Shown one piece after another: positions 3,801-54,700 of a DNA stretch of 64,000 bases. The stretch lies in NCBI GenBank assembly GCA_021234155.1, contig JAJEKV010000295.1:248001-312000 (forward strand). Direction: 5' to 3'. The notes beneath the pieces are model-generated. The model was not told where the DNA came from, ran no database searches, and worked only from the letters and a program-made list of their open reading frames with translations. Source of the stretch: Isoetes taiwanensis (taxonomy: Eukaryota; Streptophyta; Lycopodiopsida; Isoetales; Isoetaceae). Within the stretch, counting starts at the first letter, position 1. Each line of letters opens with the position of its first letter. A program made the translations under genes and the position numbers.

Positions 3801-4398
3801 CCAGCGTGCTAAATTCTTGTATTAAAATAATATTGTACACAAAAAAAATTATAATGCATGGGAATTGGCATGTGGCAAGCAATGGTTGCACACCGACATA
3901 ATAAACCTAAGTTATTTAAAAAGGCACTGGTCTGGAACAGAAGGGGTCCCATGTTACTTGATAAGGTTTGCAAATTCTCTGGAGTATGATTCTGGCAATG
4001 GTTGGCCGACAAATGGGGGTTGTTCAGGTTTTTTTTTTGTGTTCCATGGTCATCTGCTGGGAGGTCGTGGCATGCACTATCCGAGCATGTTGGGCGGCTG
4101 ATCGGCTCTCCCATGTGCTTGGGCAGTTGGTGCCCATGCCGGACGGCCAGATGCTGTTGCTCCTTATTTGGAGTGTGCCTTGCATATGACATGCCAAGAA
4201 CAACCCGAAATATTGCCGGATTGTGCATAAAGGCCGGGGTGCAGGCTTTTGGATGCACAATCCATTTCAAGCTATGGTTGCTCTGTCTTTTCCAGCAGGT
4301 ATTGTCTGATTTGGAAAATGTTTCTTCGTAGGCTGGCCAGGGGTGTGTTCAAGGGATGTTTAGGTGATGAGGGAAGACCGTTTGAGAGTAGTGCAGTG

Positions 4399-5723
4399 GC
4401 AGCATGCCGTGATCTGTGGAAGGGATTCACATTGTCTGAAGATGTGAACATGCACAATAGCAGATTCGAGGAGGTTCCAGGGTCTGCTGCTGCAGGTGGA
4501 GGTCAGGCCAGCCATGCTTTTGAGCTGGTAAATTCCTCTAAGAACGATGTTTTGTTGGGTGGACAGAGGCCTGTACAATCGTCTGAGGCAGGTATTCGTT
4601 TGGGTGGAGAGAAGGCTATAGATTCGTCTTGAGCCCCAAGCTCTTGGGGATGGAGATAGGCTAGAGGCCTCTCCTGTGTTTCAATTCACTGGTGGGCTTC
4701 CTGTTTTTGAAGACAGGGGACTGGGAGACAAGTTTTTCCAGGATGTAGGAAGCTGGCAGTGAGGAAGGTCATTTCGAAGCCTCCAAGAGGCTCTTTTCCA
4801 GAAAGGGATCTGCCCTCCTCCTCGGATGTCAGTGTTACTGTTAGTATTGGGGGAGTAGATGTATGGGATGACATATACAATTGTGTGTGCAAGTTCTTAG
4901 ACATAGAGTGCTTCAGTGTAAAAATGTGACTTGAGAGAGGGTCAGACTTGGATCGTCTTCATGTGCAGTGCGTGTTTAGAGTAGGCTTGACTAGTCCCAT
5001 AGCAGTAAATGCGAGATTGAAGAAGTATTTGGGCTGGGATACGCACAAGCCAGCTGATGCTATTATTCTGTGTAAAGCATTGAAGGATACGAAGCTGCAC
5101 TGCTATGAGGGAATGTTGGGATACTGTCTTAAGGACATGGGAAAGATGCATCACAAGCACCACATGAAGTCTGTCACTGCAGAGCAGATTGAGCGAGGAA
5201 AGGAGTTATACGCACTGTATGGAGCCGGGAGATCAAGAATTGTGTAACACTTGATAATAGAAACCTGTTTGCCAAAGCTAAGCACTTCCAATCGTATCAT
5301 GGGAAGAGACAGTTAACTGCATCTCTCATTCAAACCATTTGCAGCATGCTCCGCACTGAGAAATTCATTTTGAGCGGGGCGTGGGTTCTTCCATCAAACA
5401 TGGCCTCCATTTCGCAGCAGCGTGTGGAGACTACATGGCGATTGACTATCAATCCGAAGCACGCCTCTCACGCCGATGTTAGAAGTGTGGTTTATGGACT
5501 TCCTTCTCGAATTGTGCCACTGGAGCGCGTGGGCAAGCGTAGAAGAAGATTTTGGGATGCTAAAGCAGTCATTAGGGATGTCGAGGAAGCTAATGAGAAT
5601 GAAGAGGATGGCAGTGACGAGGGTGGAGAGCAAGCAGATGGGCATCCTGCAGATGCACCCCTGGTTGGCTGTCCCTCTTACATCCCCCTTAATTTCGGCG
5701 ATTTCTCCCTCTCTGCTCAGTAA
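4399..5723 (+). pseudogene. Rep-like HUH endonuclease, left-arm copy (degenerate)
   Basis: The central part (about 4885-5250) shows an ERG tripeptide, then L-H-V-Q at 4957-4968, then G-Y-C-L-K-D with the tyrosine codon at 5122. This order matches HUH/HUQ motif II (H-x-Q) followed by the catalytic Y-x-x-K motif III of Rep-type rolling-circle nucleases. These cut one strand and stay linked through the tyrosine. Upstream (about 4399-4900) is a low-complexity Ser/Gly/Ala region and a segment with VTVSIGG and VWDDIYN. Downstream (5346-5723) is a basic patch (KRRRRFWD) followed by an acidic stretch (EEANENEEDGSDEGG). No helicase motif was seen. The reading frame is broken in several places, so the copy is probably inactive. 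A Replitron-like Rep is the best guess; a Rep of other origin is possible. Confidence 0.5.
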
Positions 5724-5746
5724 GTAGAGGTCTGTTTGCTTTTCTC

Positions 5747-6172
5747 ATGTACAAACTGTTTGGTTTCCGTGTAGGCATAGGTAGAGATGTTGATAATGCT
5801 GTAGGCGATGGCGAGAAGGATGTTGTGTTCAGCCCTGTCATAAACGTAGACACAGATTCAGACGAGGAGCTTGAGAAGCAAGCTCATGTTGCAGCTGACG
5901 GTGGGTCCGAATGCTTTCATCTTCATATGGATATAGACCTTCTCTCAAAGGAGACCATGATGAGCATCAAAGAGTGTAGAACAGCTATGTGTAACACTAT
6001 TCAGCAGCTGGAGGAGGCGTTGCATTGTTTAGACATAGAGGATTTGAAGGTGTCCTTGAAGCAACGGAGAGTATTTCGAGGTTACATGAACTTGATGCGA
6101 GCTTTGCTCATAAAACATAACAATGCTTTGGCGCGTCTTGGGAAGACGTATTTGCGGACCATGCAGGCGTGA
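5747..6172 (+). CDS. Conserved acidic/helical ORF of the inverted-repeat element, left copy
   Basis: An uninterrupted 141-codon frame directly follows the Rep-like region, 23 nt after its end. The protein has an acidic motif near residue 40 (DTDSDEELEKQ) and a C-terminal half that looks helical, with many Leu, Gln and Lys (for example ALHCLDIEDLKVSLKQRR). The right arm encodes the same protein with about ten substitutions and no gap, so this frame is better kept than the Rep itself. It could be the C-terminal exon or domain of Rep, or a separate accessory protein. No family is recognised. Confidence 0.5.
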   Translation: MYKLFGFRVGIGRDVDNAVGDGEKDVVFSPVINVDTDSDEELEKQAHVAADGGSECFHLHMDIDLLSKETMMSIKECRTAMCNTIQQLEEALHCLDIEDLKVSLKQRRVFRGYMNLMRALLIKHNNALARLGKTYLRTMQA

Positions 6173-6199
6173 CCTGCTCTTGGAGCTGATATTTCATAG

Positions 6200-6520
6200 T
6201 TTTTTTCTTCTTAACTACAATTCCATAATTTCCCTAACGTCTAAAGTCTCCTGTTTTTTACTCCTATTCTATAATATATAATAATGTATTTCTTCTAATG
6301 TATAAATTTACCAATTCTATTGGTCTAATGTTATTTGGATGATTTTTCTTTATAAAGTACGTATCATATTTACTGTACGTATTAATATGTTAAGTACGGT
6401 ATTAATAAAACAAGAGCTTAATTTGACCTGTTAACTTATAGGTATAGTACGTATAGTACTGTGAGAAAAGTACGGACGTATGTAAACGTAAAATACGGGT
6501 ACGTAAACAATACTGAGGTG
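6200..6520. mobile_element. AT-rich insertion present only in the left arm
   Basis: The sequence reads 'gctgatatttcat' then about 320 bp, then 'gctttgaagttacgg'. In the right arm the two flanks are almost adjacent (7430-7460, minus strand). The insert is AT-rich and repeats tacgta/gtacg motifs toward its right end. No terminal repeats are clear, so its type is unknown. Either it inserted after the arms duplicated or the right arm lost it. Confidence 0.5.
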
Positions 6521-6979
6521 CTTTGAAGTTACGGTTATGTACAGATCTTGTGAATATGCAGGTGCTTTATGCAGCTTCTTATTCATGAGGCTTTTGTGGT
6601 TTGTTGTTTTCCAAGTTCAATATGCAGGTGCTTTGTGCAGCTTCTTGATGAAGCTTTTGTAATTTCCTGTTTGCCAAGAGTTACTGTTGGAATGTGCATT
6701 TAGTGTGCAAAATGCAATCCTTTTGTTTGTAATGTCTCACGTTGTGAATATGTGCTAGTCTTTGACTGCCACTTGTTCTTATCGTCGTCATATGAATGCA
6801 ATGATCTTCATTTCTTATTGTTGTGTACACATTGCACTATAACATGTATATGAATACGTAAAAATACTTGTATGGGGTTGTATATGAATACGTAGAAATA
6901 CATGTATGGGGTCTTGCGCGGAGTTATATACGGGTGTGATGTGGAAATTTGATGGCCCTGATCTCGGTATGTGCATGAT

Positions 6980-7020
6980 ATAGTTCTTGATCCAATGATT
7001 CGTGATAGTCCAAGAACTAT
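6980..7020. other. Centre of the giant palindrome
   Basis: 'atagttcttg' at 6980-6989 is answered by 'caagaactat' at 7011-7020 with a 21-nt spacer. Strong inverted similarity continues outward on both sides, for example 'tgatggccct' near 6950 against 'agggccatca' near 7041. Intact, this would extrude a very long cruciform. Confidence 0.85.
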
Positions 7021-7473
7021 GCCATGAATATACCAAATCAAGGGCCATCAAATTTCCACATCACACCCCCTCAGATAACTCCGCAAGACCCATACGTGTA
7101 TTTCTATGTATTCATATACATGTTATAGTTCAATGTGTACATTGCAATAAGAAATGAAGATCATTGCATTCATATGACGACGATAAAAACAAGTGGCAGT
7201 CAAAGACTAGTACATATTCACAACGTGAGACATTACAAACAAAAGGATTGCATTTTGCGCACAAAATGCACATTCCAACAGTAACTTGGCAAACAGGAAA
7301 TTACAAAAGCTTCATCAAGAAGCTGCACAAAGCACCTGCATATTGAACTTGGGAAACATCAAACCACAAAAGCCTCATGAATAAGAAGCTGCACAAAGCA
7401 CCTGCATATTCACAAGATCTGTACATAACCGTAACTTCAAAGCAGCATGAAATATCAGCTCCAAGAGCAGGTC

Positions 7474-7897
7474 TCACCTGCATGGTCCGAAAATACGTCT
7501 TCCCAAGACGATCCAAAGCATTGTTATGCTTTATGAGCAAAGCTCGTATCAAGTTCATGTAACCTCGAAATGCTCTCCGTTGCTTCAAGGACACCTTCAA
7601 ATCCTCTATGTCTAAACAATGCAACGCCTCCTCCAGCCGCTGAATAGTGTTGCACATAGCTGTTCTACACTCTTTGATGCTTTTCATGGTCTCCTTTGAG
7701 AGGAGGTTTATATCCACATGAAGATGAAAGCATTCGGACCTACCGTCAGCTGCAACATGAGCTTGCTTCTCAAGCTCTTCGTCTGAATCTGTGTCTACGT
7801 TTATGACAGGGCTGAACACAACATCCTTCTCGCCATCGCCTACAGCATTATCAACATCTCTACCTATGCCTACACGAAAACCAAACAATTTGTACAT
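7474..7897 (-). CDS. Conserved acidic/helical ORF of the inverted-repeat element, right copy
   Basis: Same protein as at 5747-6172, read on the minus strand toward the palindrome centre. The start aligns exactly (MYKLFGFRVGIGRD). The frame stays open past the position where the left copy stops and runs on to 7301, because the last codons differ. About ten residues differ over the shared 141. Retention of an open frame in both arms argues that the ORF was under selection until recently or that the copies are young. Confidence 0.5.
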
Positions 7898-7915
7898 GAG
7901 AAAAGCAAATGACCT

Positions 7916-9206
7916 CTACTTACTGAGCAGAGAGGGAGAAATCGCCGAAATTAAGGGGGATATAAGAGGGACAGCCAGCCAGGGGTGCGTCTGCAGGGTG
8001 CCCATCTGCTTGCTCTCCACCCTCCTCACTGCCATCTTCTTCATTCTCATTAGCTTCCTCGACATCCCCAATGACTGCCTCAGCATCCCAAAATCTTCTT
8101 CTACGCTTGCCCACGTGCTACACTGGCAAATTCCAGGAGGAAGTCCATAAACCACACTTCTAACATCGGCGTGAGAGGCGTGCTTCGGATTGATAGTCAA
8201 TCGCCATGCAGCCTCCACACGCTGCTGCGAAATGAAGGCCATGTTTGATGGAAGAACCCACGCCCTGCTCAAAATGAATTTCTCATGTATGAGCATGTCG
8301 CAGATGGTTTGAATGAGAGATGTAGTCACCGTCCCTTCCCATGATAACGATTGGAAGTGCCGAGCTTTGGCAAATAGATTTCTATTATCAAGTATTACAC
8401 AATTCTTGATCTCACGGCTCCATACAAAGGTCGTATAACTCCTTTTCTCGCTCAATACCGCTCTGCGTTGACAAACTTCATATGGTGCCCTGTGATGCAT
8501 CCTTAAGACAATATCCCAACATTCCCTCATAGTAGTGCAACCAGATCCTTCAATGCTTTTACGGAATAATAGCACCGGTGACTTCAGGCGTATCCCACCC
8601 CAAATACTTCTTCAATCTCGCATTTCTTTGCTATGGGACTAGTAAAGCCTACTCTAAACACGCAGACCGCACATGAAGACGATCCAAGTTTGACCCTCTC
8701 TCCAGGCTCACCATTCCACTGAAGCACTATGTGTCTAAGAACTTGCATACACGATTGTATATGTCATCCCATACATCTACTCCCCCAATACTAATAGTAA
8801 CACTGACATCTAAGGAGGAGGGCAGATCCCTTTGTGGAAAAGAGCCTCTTGGAGGCTTCGAAATGACCTTCTTCCTCACTTCCGACTTCCTACCTCCCTG
8901 GAAAAACTTGCCTCCCGTGCCCTTTGCCTTCAAAAGTGAAGTCCACCGGTGAATTGAAACACGAGGAGGGGCCTCCGGCCTATCTCCATCCACAAGAGCC
9001 TGGGGCTCAGATGAATCTATAGCCTTCTCTGCACCCAAATGAATACCTGCCTCAGACGATTGTACAGGCCTCTGTCCACCCAACAAAACATTGTTCTCAA
9101 AAGAATTTACCAGCTCACAATCATGGCTGGCCTGACCTCCACCTGCAGCAGCAGACCCCGGAACGTCCTCGAACCTGCTATTGTGCATGTTCACATTTTC
9201 AGACAA
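7916..9206 (-). pseudogene. Rep-like HUH endonuclease, right-arm copy (degenerate)
   Basis: Counterpart of the left-arm Rep-like region. The N-terminal part (8727-9206) is open for 159 codons with a Ser/Gly-rich start, a basic stretch (KAKGTGGKFFQGGRKSEVRKK) and the VTISIGGVDVWDDIYN segment. The middle, which holds the HUH motifs in the left arm, is more damaged here (about 8480-8720), with the Y-C-L-K region still traceable. The C-terminal part (7920-8480) repeats the WRLTINPKHASHADVRSVVYG segment and the basic/acidic tail. It is probably inactive. Confidence 0.5.
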
Positions 9207-9726
9207 TGTGAATCCCTTCCACGGACCACGGTATGCTGCCTTTGCACTACTCTCGGGAGGTCTTCCCTCAAAGATCTAAACATCCCTGGACACAACCCCC
9301 GCCAAACCCCTACGAAGAAACATCTTCCAAATCGGATAATACTTGCTTTGGAGAAGACAGAGCGACCATAGCTTGAAATGGTATGCATCCAAAAGCCTCG
9401 TAGACTCGCTTTTATGCACAATCCAAGGCAATAAATAAACCGCCTGGGCACATGGGAGAGCCGATCGGCCGCCCGAACATGCTCGGACAGTGCATGCCAT
9501 GACCTCCCAGCAGACGACCATGGAACACAAAAAAAGCCTGAACAATTTTTTCTAAAACCCTAACCCCCATTTGTCGGCCAACCATTGCCAGAATCATACT
9601 CCAGAGAAAATTTGATAATTGTAACCTATGACAATACTTGATAATTGTCACTTTTCTTATTCTATGATTGAAATTTATTTGATATTGTAACCTATGACCA
9701 AATTGACATCCAAATGGTTGCATTTG

Positions 9727-9765
9727 GATAGATAGATAGATAGGTAGATAGATAGATAGCTGCAT
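9727..9765. repeat. GATA microsatellite
   Basis: About nine tetranucleotide units of gata, with one ggta variant, lie just outside the right arm of the inverted repeat. Confidence 0.85.
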
Positions 9766-9797
9766 TAAAACAATCTATCTACCTACCTTTGTGAAAA

Positions 9798-10090
9798 TTG
9801 TTCTAGAATCCAGTTTTGGTTAAGCTATGGGCAACTATGGGCAATGGTGTGCTTTTAGTACAAACATTTGAGAAACATGAACATGTTTGTTTTATGTGTT
9901 CATGCTAAAGCGATATATACTTTAAGCAAAGAATGTGGAAATTGTTCTATAATCCAGTTTTGGTTAAGCTAACTTTTTATCAATTTTTATTCTTTGCTTA
10001 AAGTATATATTGCTTTAGCATGAACACATAAAACATAAACATGTTCATGTTTCTCAAATGCTTGTACTAAAAGCACACCATTGCCCATAG
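9798..10090. mobile_element. Foldback (MITE-like) element
   Basis: 9835-9934 and 9989-10090 are about 100-bp inverted copies of each other, separated by a loop of roughly 54 nt. The outer motif 'ctatgggcaatggtgtgc' appears inverted at the far end. A direct repeat around 'aatccagttttggttaagct' lies at about 9808-9827 and 9950-9971, one unit before the left arm and one in the loop. There is no coding capacity. Confidence 0.65.
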
Positions 10091-10963
10091 TGCTTTGGCA
10101 CCTTGTTTCTTTAAGTTGCCTTTTAAAAAAGGTTAAAGACATAATGCATAAATGATTTTATTTTCTTCTATGAAATAGTAGCACATGACATTTCGTAAGC
10201 TTATTTTGTGTTGTAAAGACTTGTGTAACCAGTTTCAGCATGTGGTTTTTATGTGTCGGATTGTAATTTGTTTTATATCTGCTTGTACATGGTGCTATTT
10301 AAGGTTCATGATTTATAAAAAAAAAATTGATAAACAAAGTACAACAAGTAAAAAAAATACCTATAATAGTTGAGAACTCCATTTTTAAATTAAAAGATTG
10401 AAATTTACATTCCAGCAGTTCTTGTTCCTGTCTGTTTTAGTTCCAGTTTTGGGAAGAAGGTCCACGTAATGAAAACGTTCATGATCAGGGAATCTGTGGT
10501 CCATATGCATAAATTTAAATTTCAACATAAACTGCTATGGCTGTCAATGAGAGTTATGAATTGCACATTACAAGTCATTTCAAATTTGATTTAGAAATGA
10601 AAACTTATGTGCAACTCATCATCTCACAATTGAGTTCCTTTTACTTGTTTGGGAATTGTTTCCTTACCTATTCTATGGAGTCATACCTACGAATCATATT
10701 AGTCTTATTCCATTTTGTTTTGAAACCCCCCATGAATCACTATGTCAGATTTCATATGGTCCTCATTTAGCCTTCTACGATCTCTTAGCAACTTATCAAC
10801 ACTAAATCATTTCAAGTTACTTAGATCCCCAATCTACAACGTACCTTTCAGTTCTGTGTTACCTTCTTTATGGAGGGGATACTTCAAATTGTGACGATGT
10901 CTCACCCGAGAGCAACCTGTGATCCTAGAAAGTAGTCCTGATGCTAAGTACAAATTCATTTTT
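10091..10963. other. Unassigned; right end probably internal sequence of an LTR element
   Basis: No gene is recognised. The last 100-200 bases lead directly into the polypurine tract at 10964-10976 and so should be the 3' internal end of the LTR retrotransposon whose LTR begins at 10977. No conserved domain is visible. Confidence 0.35.
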
Positions 10964-51747: not shown

Positions 51748-54700
51748 GGTATCAGATGCTTTCTTGAGGGAAGAATAGAGCAAGCTATTGGAAAAGCATC
51801 CAAATTGGATTGGCCATCGTTTCCGGAGTTCTTTGGCTGAGATTTGGTTGTGAAAAATCTCTTTTGCGGTATTGGAGAAGATTCTTGCTTTTTGGCCTGG
51901 AGGAAGTGTTTTGGGAGAGTGATTCGGATTTTCCAGCAAGTTCTGGTGTGAGATTCGAGTTTTCCAAGATCTTTTTGGCGACAGAATTCAAGATTCAACT
52001 TTTCTAGTGGGTGGTGACGAATTTATTTTCTCAACCATCTTTTTGGCTGCTGAAAACAGGAGAAATTTATGGATCCATTCAAGTTCTCACTGAATGCAAA
52101 GCTCACTAATAATAATTACCATGCTTGGGATATTTAGTGACATGGGAGCGGTGTTTGATGAAGATTTTATCCGCACCAAGTCGGTGAGATCTTTGGCGGG
52201 GATAAACTAGAAACACGCTCTTGTCAAAATGTTGGCTGAAGAGACAATTGGTCATGAAATCAACCATTTTACTGAGTTTAAGGAGATGTGGTCTCATTTG
52301 AAGAAGTCTCTTGACAACAAGGGTATGGCTACTCAAATGCTGATCCAGAACAAAATGAGACATGCCCAATTACGTGATTTCAAATCTGTCACAGCATACC
52401 TTACTCAGATGAAGCAATGGCGCTTGGATTACATGGCTGCTGGTGGAGTGCTGTCTGAAAAACAGCTGATTCAAGATATCTTGGTTGGTCTTCCTCCTTC
52501 GTATGATATTATCTCTTCGAAGATCAGGTACAAGGAGAAGATTGATATAGCCAAAGTAACCATTCTACTGCAACAAGAGGAGTTGGTGCAGAAGCAAAGG
52601 GATGGGAGAGTGGACCATGCTAATCTTGTGTCTACTTCTCGAGCTGACACCAAGAAGAAGATTGCTGATAGCAAAGACTCTAGGAAGTCAGAAAATGTGA
52701 AGTCTGAAGGTAAGAAATCCAAGGAGTTCAAGTGCTGGAATTGTGGTGAAAAGGGTCACTACAGTTCGAATTGTAAGAAGGAGAAGAAAAGCTCAAAGGA
52801 TAGTGACACGAGAAGCACAGCAGTCAACTCTAAGGGAGAGATTGCAGCAGCGGCCAGCACCCTACAGAAGGACTGGATTTTGTACTCAGGAGCCAGGAGC
52901 CACGGTTCATCTTACCGGAGATTCAGATGTGTTTTCTGAACTTGAACCTCGATCTGGAGGTGATGTGAAGATGGGTGATGGATATTCTCTTCCTATCACA
53001 GGAAAGGGGATTGTAGCTTTTCAATTGCATGGACATGATGTAGTTAGTAAGGTGAGGAATGTCATGTTTGCTCCCGGATTACAGTCTAATATCATGTCTG
53101 CCGCTGAGTTTGATAAAGCATGCCATTACATTGTTCTCAAAAATCGAAAAGCCTATCTGCTGGGCAGAAATCCACTTGAAGGAATTGACTTGAAAAGTCA
53201 GTGGACGCTGCAGAATGGCTTATATGTCTTTGATGGTTCAGTTTATAAGACTGAACATGGTCTTGTATGTGCTGATTTGGCTGCTGAGCATCTGTGGCAT
53301 GCTCGTTTTGGTCATGTTGGAGGCACTGCTGTACATGCTTTGTACAAGAACAAGATGGTTACATGTATTCCCTCTCTGAAATGTGTCAAGCTTGAGTGTG
53401 CTGCGTGCCATCTCGGAAAGCAACCTCAATAGCCTTTTCCACAACAGGCTATTCATCGAGCAACTCAACCTCTTGAGCTGCTGCATTCTGATTTGTGCTA
53501 TATGCCTGATGTTTCACTAGGTGGAAAGAGATATTTCTTGACCTTGATTGATGATTTCAGTAGGTACACTTGGGTGTATACTTTGTACTGCAAATCTGAG
53601 GTGCTTGGCAAGTTCAAGGCCTTCAAAGCAGCAGTCGAAAAGCATACATGGTTAGTAATAAAAAAGTTGAGAAGTGACAATGGAGGTGAATATGTTTCTA
53701 ATGCATTTGATGAGTTTCTCATGGAAGAAGGTATTGAAAGACAGTTAATCATTCCTTATGCTCATCCACAAAATGGTGTAGCTAAAAGGAGGAATAGATC
53801 TTTGCTTGATTTGGCAAGATCTATGATGAGTCACAAGCAACTGCCTGAATCTTTTTGGGGAGAGGCGTCGTGGCAATAAACATATTTGGCAAATAGGTAA
53901 GCCTACTAAAGGCGAGTCGAGGATGTGACTCCTTATGAAGCATTTTGGAGAATGAAACCAGATGTGTCTCATTTGAGGGTGTTTGGGTGCTTGGCTTATG
54001 CTTCCATACCTGCTGAGAAGCTGAAAAAGTATGGAAAGTTGCATGACAGGGCTGTCAAAGCCATCTTCATTGGGTATCCAGAAAATCAGAAAGGTTACAA
54101 GTTGTATGATCCTTCCAACAAGCAGGTTATTGTGGTGTCGATTCGAGTTCGTTGAAGATGATGTGTATGATGGTATATCTTCCGGTGATTCTCTGCTAGT
54201 TCACAATGGCGGCGGCTTGGATGTTGGAGATCGATAGCGGTGCTAGTAGACCTTTCTCTCCCTCTCCAATGGTTTCTCCGGTGAACTCACATTTGCCCTC
54301 AAGTAGTGGCGCGGGGATGATCCCAATCCCACTCGCCCTATGGTCCATGAGCAGGTTGGTTCCTTTCACGGGGAGTCCAGCACACATGAAGGTACTGTAG
54401 CACCTGATCCAGCACTTATTACAGCACCTATTGTAGCACCTGCTATACCTCCTGTTGTTGAACCTAGGGGATCAGCACGTCTCAAGGAGAAACAAATTGT
54501 TGCGTAAACCGGTTGCGGCTTTGTTGTTGAACCTAGGAGATCGGCGCGCGATGGAGAAAGCGGGAGAAGTCTAATGGATCATGTAACCTTGCCTTAATGG
54601 CAAAGGTCCGGGATCATGTTGATCCACAAACCTTTCATGAAGCGACTAGTGATCGGGCGGTGGCGGATGCAATGGAAGAAGAATACTCTCAATTCTTTGA

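Follow-up and report, generated by a model that had tools for sequence, protein, structure and literature searches.

A decayed tail-to-tail pair of Replitron copies in Isoetes taiwanensis and its possible origin by snap-back copying

Replitrons are a superfamily of DNA transposons with a Rep nuclease of the HUH type, reportedly described by Craig in 2023 in PNAS (e2301424120). According to PMC10741241, they lack terminal inverted repeats (TIRs), have direct terminal repeats of 5-11 bp, duplicate 2-8 bp of the target site, measure 0.9-4 kb and occur in green algae and in seedless land plants, lycophytes among them. A literature search returned nothing on Replitrons in Isoetes. The window analysed here, a stretch of 64,000 nucleotides of I. 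taiwanensis (C898:248001-312000, from an assembly of 1,658,258,908 bases in 1110 contigs), contains at positions 3961-9614 an inverted tail-to-tail pair of copies of an element that, judging by its coding capacity and its ends, is a Replitron, the locus being ordinary in kind. As in that superfamily, there is an HUH Rep domain with HxQ and YxxK motifs, none of the nine open reading frames (ORFs) of the arms has a helicase, DDE or reverse transcriptase (RT) match, and single copies of 2.65-2.85 kb carry short direct terminal repeats and no TIRs; the locus differs in being a tail-to-tail inverted dimer in which both right-end ATAAGG repeats are lost and both reading frames are broken. Helitrons also use an HUH nuclease, but their ends are TC...CTRR, whereas the Isoetes element has ATAAGG ends and direct terminal repeats, and its nine arm ORFs give no match to Helitron Rep/helicase profiles at E up to 1. 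A further likeness to Helitrons is the position of the hairpin, about 10 nt from the right end, to be compared with the 10-12 nt given for Helitrons in PMC10741241. The long inverted arms around a short loop also recall a long-TIR or foldback DNA transposon; this candidate was rejected because all eight single copies tested lack TIRs, and it differs as well in that the dimer shape turned up, in limited searches, at one locus on two contigs only and that the arm ORFs have no DDE match. The superfamily being known, the locus adds little by itself, and the tail-to-tail junction, seen once, looks like its only unusual trait. The gain lies in that junction, which bears on Replitron movement, and in the well-defined ends of a large Replitron family of the I. 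taiwanensis genome: both ends have ATAAGG, the right one is preceded at 9-11 nt by a hairpin and carries 1-3 iterations of a unit of about 14 nt, and short relatives share both ends.

The sequence-only reading had proposed a Rep-type HUH nuclease, belonging either to a Replitron-like transposon or to an undescribed lineage, and profile searches place it in the known superfamily, not in an undescribed lineage. The left-arm ORF at 4930-5244 matches Pfam PF21859 (Replitron_HUH) with E 5e-15 and 56.4 bits, about double the cut-off of 28.5 bits, and the whole domain, read through an in-frame TGA located 11 codons ahead of the H of HxQ, reaches E 2.2e-16 and 60.8 bits. Replitron_HUH is the sole significant family when the nine arm ORFs are scanned against Pfam, and the lack of helicase, integrase, RT and DDE domains remarked on earlier holds in them at E up to 1. 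In the left arm, LHVQ is followed by GYCLKD 52 residues on (Q86 to Y138 of P0002), as had been seen; the assertion that both arms carry LHVQ fails for the window right arm, which reads LHVR. The motifs are also conserved across the genome: all members of an eleven-sequence alignment match PF21859 (the next best family, Tox-SHH, reaches 0.018 in 3 of the 11), with H, Q, Y and K invariant, and H-x-Q is retained in 30 of 34 covered loci (L034 uncovered; exceptions L019, L021, L035 and L036) and Y-x-x-K in 33 of 35 (exceptions L036 and L038), counts for which loci were picked by profile or DNA similarity and one aligned piece with the motif suffices per locus. In a profile search of the genome contigs, all of the best 150 of 2165 candidates exceed the PF21859 cut-off, and the same search matched none of 14 control genomes.

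Regarding its architecture, the locus had been read as an inverted dimer at 3945-9640 with convergent genes; the two long inverted arms and the orientation of both genes toward the centre stand, and the limits are narrowed to 3961-9614, the earlier ones extending to a flanking word, TACTTGATAA. Positions 4211-6197 pair inverted with 7447-9433 at 89.7% identity, self-complementarity in the inner part (6519-7444) reaches 85%, and inverted pairing extends to the outer ends (3975-4118 with 9448-9608). Both arms are decayed, and their features are as follows.

3961-7010, plus strand: left arm, a Replitron copy that starts at the left terminus (ATAAGGTTTGCAAAT) and stops about 3 nt from the expected right terminal ATAAGG, delimited by alignments of relatives
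3961-3966, plus strand: left terminal short direct repeat ATAAGG, from genome-wide left-end pattern matches
4711-5247, plus strand: HUH part of the left-arm Rep gene (Pfam Replitron_HUH), with the in-frame TGA at 4927-4929 and with H-V-Q followed by G-Y-C-L-K-D
5193-6172, plus strand: left-arm downstream coding remnants in two frames, the later part of the Rep gene, without significant Pfam match
6198-6518, no strand: A+T-rich insert of 321 nt in the left arm only, present in contig C910 too, from DNA comparison
6983-7017, no strand: palindrome centre, a stem GTTCTTG/CAAGAAC plus a 21-nt loop of the element's right-end sequence (degenerate terminal hairpin)
about 7009-7011: fold-back point in the palindrome centre
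7011-9614, minus strand: right arm, an inverted Replitron copy that misses the left terminus by about 10 bp
8440-8850, minus strand: right-arm HUH remnant, with LHVR at about 8668-8679, frameshifts, and GYCLKD at about 8500-8517
8727-9275, minus strand: upstream part of the right-arm Rep gene, an open frame without Pfam match

A profile search of the right-arm ORF within the last of these (8727-9206) had been proposed; the right-arm counterparts of the two motifs, LHVR and GYCLKD, lie in the HUH remnant. By eye, an intron is possible near 5720-5784 in the left-arm downstream remnants. In the right arm, frameshifts and stops separate LHVR from GYCLKD. Its counterpart on C910, a second contig with the dimer, reads LHVQ and GYCLKD in a domain broken into two pieces, and part of the window's damage may thus stem from assembly error. 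The window right arm shows many private changes (a tree branch of 0.048 against 0.0009 for the C910 counterpart), with 65 gap columns and substitutions that cluster, against a difference of about 1% in the flanks, which makes a local consensus error within the palindrome likely and means that the right-arm frameshifts should not be over-read.

The single copies provide the standard against which the dimer can be compared. Eight of them measure 2650-2853 bp, and their terminal 150 bp hold no inverted repeats at the ends, the only shared words being of the 7-8 bp expected by chance (E at least 0.24). Their left end is ATAAGGTTTGCAAAT, starting in ATAAGG or a near variant, and 17 of the 21 relatives with an identified left end align from the equivalent of window positions 3959-3963; the right end consists of a hairpin (CTTGGATCCAATGATCCAAG in L022), 9-11 nt and then ATAAGG. 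Non-inverted relatives with defined ends, a search for which had been proposed, do exist: both ends were recognised in 13 of 25 scanned loci, with ATAAGG exact at both in 7 and a variant left end in 6 (AGAAGG in 4, ATAAGA in 1, AAAAGA in 1). A clear target duplication, the 8-bp ATGTGATG, occurs in one of the 13 (L019), the other 12 having 0-3 bp. Genome-wide, nested matches included, the left-end pattern is found 192 times (reversed-pattern control, 1) and the right-end pattern 163 times (control, 0); the window dimer retains the left-end ATAAGG only. Among the matches listed, some left and right ends lie 0.8-1.3 kb apart (e.g., C1029:5982315-5983105 and C1025:13262672-13263935), so that short relatives sharing both ends exist, presumably non-autonomous ones. 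In several right ends (e.g., L014, L019, L023, L027 and L028) ATAAGG plus about 8 nt is iterated 1-3 times in steps of 14-15 nt, the number varying between elements. Three same-strand left ends each at C974:7979576-8004962 (spacing of about 12-13 kb) and at C1032:13930180-13939644 (about 4-6 kb) form a further arrangement, which suggests tandem duplication.

What does the centre of the dimer retain of such a right end? The left arm traverses the degenerate terminal hairpin to GATAGT and continues into CCAA, where single copies have GATAGTGCAATAAGG, and past CCAA the segment that ends with GTTCTTG about 21 nt upstream follows in reverse complement. The sequence between GTTCTTG and CAAGAAC is GATCCAATGATTCGTGATAGT, single copies having GGATAGTGCAATAAGG there. 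Neither the right-end ATAAGG nor any foreign sequence is present in this centre: one arm stops about 3 nt before the expected start of the right-end ATAAGG and then folds back. As the inverted copy comes within about 10 bp of the left terminus before it stops, the palindrome has both its limits at element ends. The C910 dimer has a perfect stem (GTTCTTGG/CCAAGAAC) and a loop of 20 nt, against 21 nt in the window.

We give an even chance to the reading, drawn from this single junction, that the dimer arose when one Replitron was copied by snap-back from its 3' end, and that it has since decayed. While the element moved replicatively, a single strand, displaced or nicked, would have ended at or just before the terminal ATAAGG and folded at the end hairpin, where the CAA at its 3' end would have paired with a TTG about 21 nt upstream; the folded 3' end could then prime synthesis back over nearly the entire element, and the product would be joined to the target precisely on the left and raggedly on the right. 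Decay would have followed, and the dimer gives no sign of moving as a unit. A more specific version, in which the junction is the fossil of a transposition intermediate whose free single-stranded 3' end at the inner ATAAGG snapped back, was copied and integrated as a whole inverted dimer, is put forward only tentatively, as somewhat doubtful; finding more junctions at the same point would favour such a single-stranded 3'-end intermediate. The main rival explanation is that host replication or repair inverted and duplicated a single insertion, by template switching or snap-back at the terminal hairpin and with Rep uninvolved. In its favour, hairpins are usual sites of template switching and snap-back events, and the terminal hairpin is stronger than its shuffles in L022 (z -4.0) and L036 (z -3.0). 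Copying on into the left flank would be expected in that case, yet the inverted copy ends short of the left terminus, and we regard a host origin as rather unlikely.

The second contig, C910:2028000-2037999, carries the same dimer with flanks 98.9% (left) and 99.4% (right) alike; it therefore represents either the other haplotype or a segmental copy, and the sharing of dimer and flanks by both contigs indicates a single event. In a tree with 14 other copies, the four arms of C898 and C910 form one clade with support 1.0, according to which the arms of the dimer are sister copies. That grouping bears on a second rival, in which two Replitrons of the same lineage inserted independently in opposite orientation side by side and the middle was later deleted. 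Members of the family do cluster, with same-strand neighbours on C1101 and C1049, three same-strand pairs within 10 kb among the best 150 of 2165 profile matches (counted by eye) and a head-to-head pair on C1019. However, besides the arms being sisters among the copies sampled, the centre lacks both ATAAGG and any foreign base, and independent insertions fit less well with a loop in which the end of the element occurs just once; this explanation is held to be unlikely. The C910 arms, at 94.46% identity, are nearer to each other than to the single copy L011 (92.31 and 92.88%). Between the window left arm and the C910 right arm, 67 of 111 differences are G to A or C to T, and an excess of such changes is expected for a methylated, silenced transposon.

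A third rival, an assembly artefact of nanopore fold-back reads, has in its favour that the assembly is nanopore-based (PMC8566536), that the window right arm looks under-polished and that the two contigs carry the palindrome's middle in opposite orientations. Against C910, positions 6932-7068 are 96.4% identical when inverted and 83.1% in place, and the left tail (6519-6931) 97.1 and 94.2%, respectively; the right tail (7069-7444) gives 94.9% inverted and 96.9% in place, and the outer arms are likewise not better inverted. Recombination between the arms or an assembly choice could account for this inverted centre. A pure artefact was nonetheless rejected, being extremely improbable given that the arms differ by 5.5% in C910 and 9.5% in the window, that two contigs carry the dimer with left arms about 99.5% alike, and that the outer flanks are unlike each other.

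Several observations weigh against the snap-back reading. It concerns one event only, and the same centre could be obtained by host template switching at the hairpin. The terminal hairpin of L011 is no stronger than its shuffles (z +0.43). One base of the proposed priming site differs, the dimer reading GTCCAA and single copies GTGCAA, and the C910 loop is reversed relative to its flanks, so that which arm was the template cannot be told. By raw identity, the window left arm resembles L011 (92.05%) more than it does the right arm of the same dimer (90.55%), a point that also speaks for independent insertions and that is explained by the long private branch of the window right arm in the tree. 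Regarding the protein, the HUH fold is unconfirmed, the single-sequence AlphaFold model being too poor to use (pLDDT, the model's per-residue confidence score, of 40), and a profile search of PDB sequences gave nothing significant (best E 0.59). Lastly, no empty site was found with the left flank as query: among 40 scored candidates, only C898 and C910 carry the flank through to the element. For this reason, the 10-nt word TACTTGATAA on both sides of the pair is unproven as a target duplication of the dimer; four of its bases, ATAA, are the element's own, and 46 of 20000 random pairs of size-matched stretches have an equally long word in common. A 49-nt partial repeat 22 kb upstream stops about 12 nt before the element and has no empty site.

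Such dimers appear to be scarce, within the reach of exact patterns, which would miss diverged ones. For centre gaps of 81-141 nt the matches are C898 and C910 alone, and for gaps of 141-201 nt there are none; the centre used as a DNA query gives no other full match among the best 40 of 130 candidates. The pattern for a fold-back at the hairpin has nine matches, of which C910 is the dimer, C1045 contains ATAAGG and seven are the plain terminal hairpin word, followed by ATAAGG in four (C1025, C1026 and twice C1030), the other three being at C268, C301 and C1048. By eye, no opposite-strand pairs within 10 kb occur among the best 150 of the 2165 profile matches, a list that favours well-preserved copies and does not include the window's own arms. 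The dimer was rejected as a spreading unit, since in these searches it is confined to two contigs that share their flanks. The head-to-head pair on C1019 (L056, 5252500-5257600) is a palindrome of about 4.57 kb at 90.8%, in which the plus copy has an intact left ATAAGG starting exactly at the centre and a full right end, and the minus copy is truncated at both ends; it may therefore be a nested insertion and not a fold-back. A short segment beside the plus copy is inverted.

Beyond the dimer, 1130 bp of the window (9606-10735) are absent from C910, whose breakpoint falls within the right arm; as the element homology of the window extends beyond the breakpoint, C910 probably lost them. Within this segment lie a fold-back repeat (9834-10091, 86% over its whole length) and stretches that occur repeatedly in the genome. 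No hits came from Rfam and tRNA scans of the window. Far from the pair, at 52211-53432, there is a remnant of a Copia-type retrotransposon, two overlapping frames of which encode gag, zinc knuckle, Pol beta-barrel and GAG-pre-integrase domains.

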